From Acidobacteriota bacterium (GTDB lineage Bacteria; Acidobacteriota; Vicinamibacteria; Vicinamibacterales; JAKQTR01): a stretch of 64,000 nt of DNA. Made by a program: the position numbers and the translations under genes. The notes below the pieces were generated by a model. That model was not told where the DNA came from and ran no database searches. It worked only from the letters and a program-made list of their open reading frames with translations. Location: positions 1 to 64,000 of the forward strand of contig JAPKZQ010000045.1 in assembly GCA_026393675.1 (NCBI GenBank), read 5' to 3'. Each line of letters starts with the position of its first letter. Positions within the stretch are counted from its first letter, which is position 1. Of the stretch, positions 24,035 to 39,863 are shown in pieces.

Positions 24035-24087
24035 GGGAATTGGAGGCGCCGTCCCGATTTGAACCGGAGAATGGAGGTTTTGCAGAC
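24035..24087 (-). repeat. Partial tRNA-Cys copy 1 (3' half plus flank), possible attachment site
   Basis: This 53-bp stretch matches 39783-39835 (the tRNA-Cys 3' end with its flank) except for one base. It covers the anticodon loop to the 3' end plus six bases beyond, in the same orientation as the complete gene. Similarity ends exactly after the anticodon loop (TGCAGAC). Direct repeats of a tRNA 3' half are a usual trace of integrase-mediated insertion. Confidence 0.9.
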
Positions 24088-24131
24088 GGCTGGCGGCCCT
24101 GGGCGGATCGGCTGTACAGCGACACTGGTGG

Positions 24132-24926
24132 TCACACCTGCGAGTAGTCCGTGGGTCGCAGGAACATCACCGTCGTGGCTGAAACCGTGTTCGCGAATGC
24201 CGGGTCGGCGCTCAGCTTCTTCCAATCCGGGGAATTGCGGAAGTCCTCCCACACTTTCTCGCGTGCCGCCATGTCCTGATGAACCGTCATGTACACCAGG
24301 TTCGGCTGTCTCCGGCCGACGAGGGTCTGTCCGAAGAACACCGGCCTCAAGCCAACGCGGTCGAAGATTCCGATTTCGCCTCCCTCGTTGAACATCTCGA
24401 TCTTCTTCAGCGCGGCTGATTCACTGTGGCTTTCGTAGATGCGCAATTCGAAGAGCCGCGCCTTCTTTCCGGCCGTTTCCGCCGGGATTCGCATCCTCGG
24501 CACGTTCTTGAGCGCCCACAGCAACGAACTCTCGTATCGCGTATACGCGGGATTGTCGATGGAGGCTCCCAGGTAGGCGGCGGCGGCCTTCTGATACTCC
24601 ACGTCCGCAGCCAGTCTCTCGGGAACCGCGAGGAGTGACCCCAGGTTCGGATATGGGATCAACACATACAGGAAGAGGGCGTTGCTGCCGGACACCACAT
24701 TGAACACCCCAACCGGAGTGACACCCAGCCTGTTAAACGCGGGGATACAGGCCTTTGAGAGGTAGTCGTTGAGGACGGTCTTCCGGTTGCCAGTCGGCAT
24801 TTCATAGACCCGCAGCTCATAGAACTCCCGCGGGGCCACTTGAGCGAACGCCTGGCTGCCCGGCCATCCGGCGAGGACGGCACCGCCAGCCAGCGAAGAG
24901 GACTTGATGAACTCACGCCGTTTCAC
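24132..24926 (-). CDS. NIPSNAP-domain protein with Tat-type signal
   Basis: The 264-residue protein begins with RREFIKSSSLAGGAVLAGWP, a twin-arginine-type signal, then two ferredoxin-like halves: REFYELRVYEMPTGNRK... and RLFELRIYESHSESAALKK. This is the duplicated NIPSNAP pattern. NIPSNAP proteins are of uncertain role; the dimeric alpha-beta barrel fold suggests binding of a small ligand. GTG 24926 is chosen because GGAGGTG lies five bases upstream and the signal peptide begins there. The gene is alone between two partial tRNA-Cys copies, as though carried in as one unit. Confidence 0.9.
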   Translation of the reverse strand: MKRREFIKSSSLAGGAVLAGWPGSQAFAQVAPREFYELRVYEMPTGNRKTVLNDYLSKACIPAFNRLGVTPVGVFNVVSGSNALFLYVLIPYPNLGSLLAVPERLAADVEYQKAAAAYLGASIDNPAYTRYESSLLWALKNVPRMRIPAETAGKKARLFELRIYESHSESAALKKIEMFNEGGEIGIFDRVGLRPVFFGQTLVGRRQPNLVYMTVHQDMAAREKVWEDFRNSPDWKKLSADPAFANTVSATTVMFLRPTDYSQV

Positions 24927-25086
24927 GATTCCACCTCCGCGATCGAAGGGGGGCAGGTCCGCACAAGACGATGAGATTACTGCACGCGTGTCGGTCGCGC
25001 AAGGAGCACGGGGGCAGCGTCCCGGCGCGGTCAGTCTGAGGCTGGAGGTGCAGACGAGCGCGGACCTCGGTCGTCCTGGTGAAGTG

Positions 25087-25134
25087 TGGAGGCGCCGTCC
25101 GGATTTGAACCGGAGAATGGAGGTTCTTGCAGAC
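25087..25134 (-). repeat. Partial tRNA-Cys copy 2, possible attachment site
   Basis: This 48-bp stretch matches the tRNA-Cys 3' half at 39789-39835 with one inserted C, in the same orientation as copy 1 and the complete gene. As with copy 1, the match ends after TGCAGAC in the anticodon loop. Copies 1 and 2 bracket the NIPSNAP gene; copy 2 and the complete gene bracket 14.7 kb of accessory genes. Confidence 0.9.
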
Positions 25135-25361
25135 GGGTAACGGCACCGATCACGAACCGCAGAACCAGGCCGGATAGCGCGTCTTGGGCCAGTCGTTTTC
25201 GCCCCATCGAGGAGCCAGAAAGCACAGCGAATGTCTCCTCCGAATCCTGTTAGACAGATCGATCGACTGCGGGTCTTCTTCCCGAAGAGGAACCCGATGC
25301 GCTTGCAAGATCACGGGCGATGGCTCTGCAAATCGGGAGGCGCGACCGCCTCGCTCACGGC

Positions 25362-37623: not shown

Positions 37624-37651
37624 GTCGTGTCAGTCCTCCGGGGGTGCGTGC

Positions 37652-38638
37652 CTATTTCGCGAGCAGTCCCTGCAGGATCTTCTCCGCCACGGCGAAGACC
37701 GTGCCGTGCCTAGCCCCGGGCGGCATCTGCAGTTCGCCGCCCAGGGGCGTCCAGGTCTTCAGGTCGTGCGATCGCACGCCCTCGAAGCGGTGCCGCGTGT
37801 AGGCGTCGAAGAGCACGATCATGTCGGCGCCGGCCCGGAACGTCGTGGGGCCTTCCACCCAGTTCTCCACCGAGACCGGCCCTGGAGCCAGCACGTAGGG
37901 CCCCAGCGCGTGGTCGGCGAACGCGACGCGGATCTCCTTGCGCGGCTCGGGGAACTTCGTCTCGTCTTTGAGGAACATCACGTACCGCGCCCCGTCGCGG
38001 ACGATGGTCGCGTCGATGACATCGAAGCCCGGATCGAGGAACAGCTCCGCCCGGCTGTACGCCTTGAAGTCCTTGGTGGTCGTGCGGTAGATGCGGTGGT
38101 TCAGCCGCGAGCCGTCCGCGGAGCGGATGTCGGCGGTGTCGTCCGTGGCCGGGAAGCGGCCGGGAATCGCCGTGGCCCAGAAGATCACGTACTGCTGCGT
38201 GTGCTCGTCGAAGATGATCTCCGGGGCCCACGCGTTCGCCGCCTTGCGCTCGTGCACCATGACGGGCAGGAACGCCACGCCGGTCCACGTCAGCAGGTCT
38301 TTCGAGTGGCCGATCCCGATGCCCTGCTCCCACCACCCGGTCGTCCAGACCGCGTGGAACACGTTGTCCGGACCGAGCATGATGCAGGGGTCACGCATCA
38401 GCTTGCCCCCGACCGCCGGCGCGAGGAACGGCTGACCCTCGTGCAGGGGCGTCCACGCCAAGCCGTCGCGGCTGTAGGCGAGGTGGAGGCCGTCCTGGCC
38501 ATTGTCGAGGAAATAGCTGAACACCCACGGGCCGGCCTTGTTGGGGGCCGCTGTCACGCTCGCAAGCGACGCGACGGCGAGGATGGCGGCGGCGGCGACA
38601 GCGAGGCAGCGAGCGGCAACCGGGACACGGCATTTCAT
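37652..38638 (-). CDS. Secreted glycosidase-like five-bladed beta-propeller protein
   Basis: The 328-residue protein has a signal peptide (CLAVAAAAILAVASLASVTA) and the pattern of GH43/GH32-like proteins: FSYFLDNGQDGLHLAYSRDG, LMRDPCIMLGPDNVFHAVWT, SKDLLTWTGVAFLPVM, AWAPEIIFDEHTQQYVIFWA and DPGFDVIDATIVRDGARYVM. The MRDPCIM and DATIV aspartates and the WAPE glutamate fit the expected acidic positions. It likely acts on plant-type polysaccharide; the exact substrate cannot be told. The lactonase gene follows 28 bases downstream, so the two are probably co-transcribed. Confidence 0.85.
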   Translation of the reverse strand: MKCRVPVAARCLAVAAAAILAVASLASVTAAPNKAGPWVFSYFLDNGQDGLHLAYSRDGLAWTPLHEGQPFLAPAVGGKLMRDPCIMLGPDNVFHAVWTTGWWEQGIGIGHSKDLLTWTGVAFLPVMVHERKAANAWAPEIIFDEHTQQYVIFWATAIPGRFPATDDTADIRSADGSRLNHRIYRTTTKDFKAYSRAELFLDPGFDVIDATIVRDGARYVMFLKDETKFPEPRKEIRVAFADHALGPYVLAPGPVSVENWVEGPTTFRAGADMIVLFDAYTRHRFEGVRSHDLKTWTPLGGELQMPPGARHGTVFAVAEKILQGLLAK

Positions 38639-38906
38639 GGCGGCGCGATTATACCAACCGCGCCAGCCGAGTACGAAGCGCGTTACTGTGAGCAGGCCAA
38701 GGTGGCCTGAGTCACACCATTCGCTCTTCGAGATTCCCGGTACGGTTCACCCGACGTCGGTTGATTCTTTGCCCGGGCGGAGCATGGCACGACCGGATGC
38801 CTCACGGTATACTACGCACGACGGTCAGGAGCTTGCTCACGGTCGCACTTGCCGTGGCCGTCTGACTGTTCCGTGTTGTTGCAGCCTGCCCACTTGGAGA
38901 CCGGGG
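38639..38906. other. Intergenic stretch between divergent genes
   Basis: No supportable gene is seen. The open frame of the next gene extends leftward to 38538 but its translation here is not protein-like. The stretch must hold promoters for both flanking genes; no strong consensus was found. Confidence 0.4.
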
Positions 38907-39773
38907 ATGTCGATTGGGAATGCTGCGCTGCTCGTGTGTCTCCTGTATCTGCCGACCACCACGTCTCCAAGACCGGTTCAGGCCCCTCCTGCTGAACTGA
39001 CGACGGTTCTCGATCGCGCAACCGCCTACGTCGCCGCCTACGTTAAGAGCCTGTCGTCGGTCGTCAGTGAGGAACGATTCGACCAGCGCGTGGATACGCG
39101 AGGCGACAGATTCGAGAGATTCACCACAAGCAACACGGTGACGCGCACGCTCGTGTCCGACTATCTGCTCGTACAGGTTCCGGGGCTGAGTGAGTGGCTG
39201 CCGTTTCGCGACGTGTACTCCGTTGACGGCGTACCCGTCCGCGACCGTAACGACCGCCTCCTCAAGCTCTTCGTCGAGTCACCCGCCTATGCGTATAGCC
39301 AGGCGCTCCGCATTCGCGATGAGAGCAGCCGCTACAACATCGGCAGCGGACTGCGGGACATCAACGTGCCGACCTTCGCGTTGCAGATACTCACCAAGCA
39401 ACTCCGGGCAGGGTTCGTGTTCAGGCAACGCGGCCGCGAGCGAGTGAACGGCCTGGACACGATCATCGTCGACTACGAGGAGACCTCGACGCCGACGCTC
39501 ATTGTTGGACGCAATGACCAAAACGTGCCTGCGCGCGGGCGATTCTGGATCGAGCCCGAAACCGGGCGGGTCGTTCGCACGCGCATCGAAACCCGTCCGG
39601 ACGGCAACACCAACAGCATTGAGGTCGTCTTCCGCGAGGAGCCGAAACTCGGCCTGTGGGTGCCCAGCCTGATGGACGAACGTCGTGTGACTGGGCTGGA
39701 TAAGATGGAAGGACGTGCGACCTACACAAACTACCGTCGCTTCCAGGTGAGCACGGCGTTCGAGATTAAGTAG
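38907..39773 (+). CDS. Secreted hypothetical protein (288 aa)
   Basis: From ATG 38907, with GGAGA six bases upstream, the protein has a short signal peptide (IGNAALLVCLLYLPTTTSPR) and a soluble domain beginning AELTTVLDRATAYVAAYVKS, SLSSVVSEERFDQRV. Later motifs include RGRFWIEPETGRVVRTRIET and FREEPKLGLWVPSLMDERR, resembling outer-membrane lipoprotein-carrier-like beta folds seen in uncharacterised Acidobacteriota proteins. No established function. It ends 15 bases before the tRNA-Cys gene on the other strand. Confidence 0.78.
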   Translation: MSIGNAALLVCLLYLPTTTSPRPVQAPPAELTTVLDRATAYVAAYVKSLSSVVSEERFDQRVDTRGDRFERFTTSNTVTRTLVSDYLLVQVPGLSEWLPFRDVYSVDGVPVRDRNDRLLKLFVESPAYAYSQALRIRDESSRYNIGSGLRDINVPTFALQILTKQLRAGFVFRQRGRERVNGLDTIIVDYEETSTPTLIVGRNDQNVPARGRFWIEPETGRVVRTRIETRPDGNTNSIEVVFREEPKLGLWVPSLMDERRVTGLDKMEGRATYTNYRRFQVSTAFEIK

Positions 39774-39788
39774 GCTGTGTCGGGGAAT

Positions 39789-39863
39789 TGGAGGCGCCGT
39801 CCGGATTTGAACCGGAGAATGGAGGTTTTGCAGACCTCTGCCTTACCACTTGGCTACGGCGCC
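39789..39863 (-). tRNA. tRNA-Cys (GCA)
   Basis: The 75-base gene includes the encoded CCA. The acceptor stem GGCGCCG/CGGCGCC, the anticodon stem GAGGT/ACCTC with loop CTGCAAA (anticodon GCA) and the T-loop GGTTCAAATCC are all present. Its 3' half is duplicated at 24035-24087 and 25087-25134, which makes this the likely target gene of past integrations. A tRNA-Gly gene lies 44 bases upstream on the same strand. Confidence 0.97.

Follow-up and report, generated by a model that had tools for sequence, protein, structure and literature searches.

The DNA studied here is a 64,000-nucleotide stretch of an Acidobacteriota bacterium of the order Vicinamibacterales (assembly GCA_026393675.1, contig JAPKZQ010000045.1, positions 1 to 64,000), called the window below and lying on contig C45 of genome G000 in our numbering, in which a complete tRNA-Cys gene is accompanied by two copies of its 3' half. 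We consider it probable, at roughly 0.86, that these 3' halves are the attachment site (att) scars of elements that accreted at tRNA-Cys and have since decayed. tRNA-Cys would be a hotspot for tyrosine-integrase elements recombining at the anticodon loop; the attP of such an element would bear a tRNA-Cys 3' half, with which the tRNA is rebuilt on integration, while the old 3' half and everything past it would be carried outward on the 3' side. Successive rounds would have produced the displaced halves at 25087 and 24035, and later erosion, through loss of the integrase, internal deletions and IS3 insertions, may have left the 24.0–39.8 kb region as an integrase-less accretion remnant akin to a cis-mobilizable element (CIME).

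ARAGORN identifies the complete gene, and the two 3' halves, which the original prediction had placed in the same orientation as that gene, are recovered both by a repeat finder and by a search of the genome against itself. With the complete gene they form one direct repeat family (24035, 25081 and 39783), and each is 98% identical to it (over 53 bp with E 4.0e-20 for the 24035 copy; E 2.7e-16 for the 25087 copy). In alignment, positions 24041–24087 show one substitution and the 25087 copy one inserted base. Both copies end at the identical base of the tRNA, immediately 5' to the anticodon loop, which confirms the common end-point proposed earlier, and the 6 bp past the CCA (GGGAAT) are common to the 24035 copy and the full gene and are not found in the 25087 copy. 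The genome search returned a fourth copy of the sequence on another contig (C42:8760–8804, 45 bp, 100%, E 4.1e-17) and no further partial copies, all remaining matches being noise with E > 1; at three in 3.25 Mb, partial tRNA-Cys copies are rare and far beyond chance. The change in composition that had been put forward as a check is seen in part: GC content is slightly lower inside the region than elsewhere (63.7% vs 65.4%; Mann-Whitney p 3e-4), but the edges are not sharp. Besides tRNA-Cys and the adjoining tRNA-Gly, no other structured RNA was found in 17–43 kb.

The same arrangement recurs across the order. Among 162 genomes searched for tRNA-Cys 3' halves, 14 carry one or more fragments and the full gene on one contig (counted by hand: G000, G004, G005, G048, G055, G075, G093, G094, G104, G108, G118, G120, G121 and G125), and all 16 of the fragments lie on the 3' side of tRNA-Cys, on the same strand and 1–16 kb away. 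They start at about tRNA position 26–32 and end at the CCA or past it; in G120 and G104 some 25–30 bp past the CCA are common to the flank of the full gene. Gene order is kept across relatives on the side of tRNA-Cys that holds tRNA-Gly, UPF0102 and a saccharopine dehydrogenase-like gene, and the 3' side is variable. The contigs of G059, G079, G091, G129 and G133 end exactly at tRNA-Cys, as would be expected if the populations were mixed for the sequence past its 3' end. An apparent group I intron splitting tRNA-Cys in G026 was discarded, since the gap is a run of 332 N, masked or a scaffold gap.

In many of these loci a tyrosine integrase adjoins the 3' end of tRNA-Cys or a fragment, with its stop codon facing the tRNA. 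An integrase of about 390 aa, family A, is intact in G094, G125, G075 and G108, in all of which a tRNA-Cys 3' half forms the half-site next to the integrase stop codon; it is frameshifted or cut in G055 and survives as remnants in G104, G118, G120 and G014. Family B is represented in G125 and G069, partially in G121 and by a C-terminal stump in G005, and a third type of integrase occurs in G034. G125 holds two tandem elements, each with its own integrase, and G048 two nested fragments, each adjoined by a decaying family-A integrase. To judge from their sequences the relatives can be ranged by the state of the integrase, from intact through decaying to absent, and the window, which keeps half-sites only, appears to fit the last of these. 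About one-third of the 39 strong family-A matches in the order lie within about 3.5 kb of tRNA-Cys or a fragment of it, and others adjoin tRNA-Ser(GCT), Ser(TGA), Leu(TAA) or Leu(CAA). The family-A tree, in which support is weak, has no single tRNA-Cys clade, which suggests that the choice of target may have switched several times. At one locus (L080, G127:C14, 4139–5453) a family-A integrase lies 5' of a tRNA-Cys 3' half, the reverse of all other cases.

An element of this kind in what may be its excised form is provided by the IMG/VR contig IMGVR_UViG_3300010366_000906 (L154, 1–9828), which closes into a circle of 9705 bp because its ends overlap exactly over 123 bp. Its family-A integrase shares 66% identity with the G125 enzyme, and the integrase ORF (open reading frame) continues into a tRNA-Cys 3' half (6865–6907); no complete tRNA is present on the contig. 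Its other products include a protein resembling a major capsid protein, a primase/helicase and a small MerR-like protein; relatives of the last and of one further small protein occur in the G125 island, and a relative of the primase at a tRNA-Leu locus of G001, the sister species of G000. From its sequence the contig has the expected look of an excised element with its attP, perhaps a small phage or a capsid-bearing satellite. Its attP would leave just such 3' halves as are seen in the window, and its integrase is of the family found with tRNA-Cys islands in relatives, although its genes are all absent from the window and its T-arm variant is that of other families of the order. We infer that the window fragments derive from this integrase family. 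The geometry in 14 genomes, the adjoining integrases and the circular contig with attP together give good support to the original proposal of tyrosine-integrase att sites in a decayed element.

The distribution of genes at the locus suggests an order for the events. NIPSNAP is also present in G002 and G003, which belong to another genus, where it lies 3' of tRNA-Cys at distances of 6.4 and 3.4 kb respectively, on the strand of the tRNA; of six genomes searched, only G000 and G001 have the LssY gene, which in each of them is 3' of tRNA-Cys. The more widely shared NIPSNAP is outside the 25087 fragment and the genus-only LssY inside it, as accretion predicts: the older gene should be farther out, because each new element is inserted directly beside the tRNA. 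An alternative is that fragments and genes disappeared from G001 through unrelated losses. A rhamnosidase gene follows NIPSNAP in G002 and G003; it is missing in the window, where the 24035 fragment begins 45 bp after the NIPSNAP stop, and the 1-kb segment is thus best described as an eroded stump. The earlier estimate of two inserts of 1 kb and 14.7 kb therefore has to be given up, the smaller being this stump and the larger a mosaic with IS3 ends.

Several observations weigh against decayed integrative elements as the source of the window fragments. The fragments are nearly perfect, and neutral decay would predict more changes in old copies. As had been noted before, no integrase is visible: there is no PF00589 match in C45:1–64000, and tblastn with families A, B and C as queries recovered no integrase remnant in 22–42 kb (best E 0.07). 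Beside the window fragments, none of the att-arm sequence resembling that of the active elements is left. The empty site that had been suggested as a check, joining 24034 to the tRNA flank, was not found in G001–G004 in a DNA search with 20.0–39.8 kb, and the RND pump genes to the left of 24 kb are on a different contig with different neighbours in G001, the left flank being rearranged; for these two reasons the outer chromosomal edge of the region is unproven. Some of the genes within the brackets have long been resident at the locus. The refuting case named with the original prediction, the same genes in the same order in relatives without tRNA-Cys fragments, was not found: the 24–39 kb block is kept in no relative.

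The near-perfect state of the half-sites could also mean that the segments are alive, as non-autonomous units, CIME-like or of a single gene, that are moved by tRNA-Cys integrases of another element. The C42 copy predates the split of G000 and G001 and has nevertheless stayed intact, and brackets that have no integrase recur in relatives. Yet the short brackets in relatives mostly keep a decaying integrase stump (G005, G104, G120 and G055), which points to deletion and not to cassettes, and NIPSNAP and LssY are stable at the locus across species. Nor is a likely helper at hand in the genome. None of its seven Phage_integrase genes is in the window, and the sole family-A member, C45:88597–89700 (56% identical to that of G125), groups in the tree with tRNA-Leu integrases and with its G001 sister, which abuts a tRNA-Leu(CAA) 3' half with the full gene 5.3 kb away (L131, G001:C15, 8388–9564 and 14891–14979); on these grounds it is unlikely to act as a helper at tRNA-Cys sites, and the mobilization in trans that the original prediction had entertained is left with a poor candidate. 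No tRNA lies near this integrase within 78–103 kb of the contig, and the L131 locus starts with the primase related to that of the circular element. We accordingly give living non-autonomous units little credence. Similarly slim is the chance that the integrase-free segments belong to a shared cargo pool, still excised and re-inserted at tRNA-Cys in Acidobacteriota by the integrases of satellite-like circular elements.

A spread of the 3' halves among tRNA copies, through duplication, gene conversion or homologous recombination, would dispense with an integrase altogether. It would suit a window that has none, and copies that differ hardly at all from the resident gene and share its family-specific T-arm variant. 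Duplications, however, would not always end at the anticodon loop, nor would they always fall 3' of the gene and on its own strand; beyond their ends the copies show no additional homology, and integrases occupy the same place in relatives, so that we regard this route as very improbable. Insertion of reverse-transcribed tRNA halves arising from anticodon cleavage, which would account for the breakpoint at the anticodon loop and for the 25087 and C42 copies ending at the CCA, can be all but dismissed in view of the flank past the CCA that other copies share with the full gene (24035, G120 and G104), the side and strand bias and the adjoining integrases.

A positive control is available in the same genome, where an island of the same geometry and other content is present at tRNA-Pro(CGG). 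On contig C42 (L009) this gene (19649–19725) has its own perfect 45-bp 3' half at 8511–8555, 11.1 kb away, and none of the genome's Phage_integrase genes is on C42. The orthologous tRNA-Pro pair of G001 is 2.2 kb apart with other content. About 205 bp inward from the outer end of the tRNA-Pro island is the fourth tRNA-Cys half, which is also present in G001 (tRNA parts of the G001 island at L048: 7658–7734, 9687–9729, 9929–9973), the orthologous flanks of the two genomes being about 86% identical.

The mechanism is an ordinary, well-known kind of event, of which the window is a worn-down copy without its own recombinase. In the Islander/TIGER work a restored tRNA gene (tDNA) and a displaced fragment mark the ends of islands, anticodon-loop sites are among the commonest and tandem arrays are known (PMC4383910). 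The window likewise has a complete tDNA, a same-strand 3' fragment on the 3' side and a crossover at the anticodon loop, but its brackets have no integrase and the inner one is under 2 kb (14.65 kb falls within the 2–200 kb island range, 1.0 kb below it), and the integrase filter of Islander would reject both. CIMEs are att-flanked, integrase-less remnants, 1.2–13 kb in size, of streptococcal integrative and conjugative or integrative and mobilizable elements (ICE/IME) stacked at one target (PMC7563491); the window region is similarly att-flanked, stacked at one gene, of similar sizes and without recombination or conjugation genes, whereas its parent element looks phage- or satellite-like rather than ICE/IME, a likeness drawn from sequence. 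Integration is a known source of tRNA gene fragments, as for PYG1 with its 44-bp repeats at tRNA-Gln in Pyrococcus yayanosii (PMC9897764), where a partial tRNA copy also brackets accessory DNA; organism and tRNA differ, and the window case is nested and lacks an integrase. A literature search found no paper on tRNA-Cys islands in Acidobacteriota, so that a strong tRNA-Cys integration hotspot in this little-studied order is undescribed in the literature searched. Its layers, datable from the genes shared with relatives, and a circular element with matching attP make this a ready system for the study of island accretion and decay, and a candidate integrase/attP pair is available.

Features of the tRNA-Cys region are collected in the table. 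Two TIGR03436 proteins among them suggest by themselves that the organism is probably an acidobacterium.

Table. Features at and around the tRNA-Cys locus of the window
Feature	Position	Strand	Basis
3' half of tRNA-Cys with 6 bp of downstream flank (GGGAAT), putative displaced att half-site, one substitution	24035-24087	-	repeat finder, genome search
Inner segment 1, ~1 kb, eroded stump with NIPSNAP only	24088-25086		repeat finder, gene comparison
NIPSNAP-domain protein, single copy	24132-24926	-	Pfam PF07978 E 4.9e-20
3' half of tRNA-Cys, anticodon loop to CCA, putative displaced att half-site, one inserted base	25087-25134	-	genome search
Segment 2, 14.65 kb, mosaic accessory block from fragment to full tRNA-Cys	25135-39788		
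AAA_14/DUF4143 ATPase	25362-26501	-	Pfam
Probable left end of IS3-type element	26633-26843	+	inverted repeat by eye, OrfA-like start
LssY C-terminal domain protein	26851-27549	+	Pfam PF14067 E 2e-67
VWA-domain protein, TIGR03436 acidobact_VWFA, true start probably later	29850-32156	+	NCBIfam
Second VWA-domain protein, TIGR03436	32396-34645	+	NCBIfam
Alpha/beta hydrolase	35221-36294	+	Pfam
7-bladed propeller lactonase	36403-37623	-	Pfam PF10282
Glycosyl hydrolase family 43-like protein	37652-38638	-	Pfam PF04616 E 1.9e-8
ORF of unknown family, ending 15 bp from tRNA-Cys 3' end	38538-39773	+	
Right end of IS3-type element: transposase C-terminus (..PAEYEARYCEQAKVA*) and inverted repeat	38661-38752	+	
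Complete tRNA-Cys(GCA), putative integration target	39789-39863	-	ARAGORN; Rfam RF00005 67.4 bits
tRNA-Gly adjoining tRNA-Cys	39908-39982	-	ARAGORN

The IS3 remnant reported earlier at 26648–26854 matches HTH_Tnp_1 at E 0.11 only, under the Pfam cut-off, but the IS3-type right end makes the claim plausible and indeed understated. The left and right ends are on the same strand and 12 kb apart, and belong either to a single element interrupted by 11.8 kb of DNA or to two copies, each truncated. The real start of the ORF nearest to tRNA-Cys must be later than given, because its first part overlaps the IS3 remnant. Its protein has a relative, 38% identical over 263 aa, at L067 17854–18630, encoded just past the outer fragment of the integrase-bearing G094 island and in the opposite orientation.

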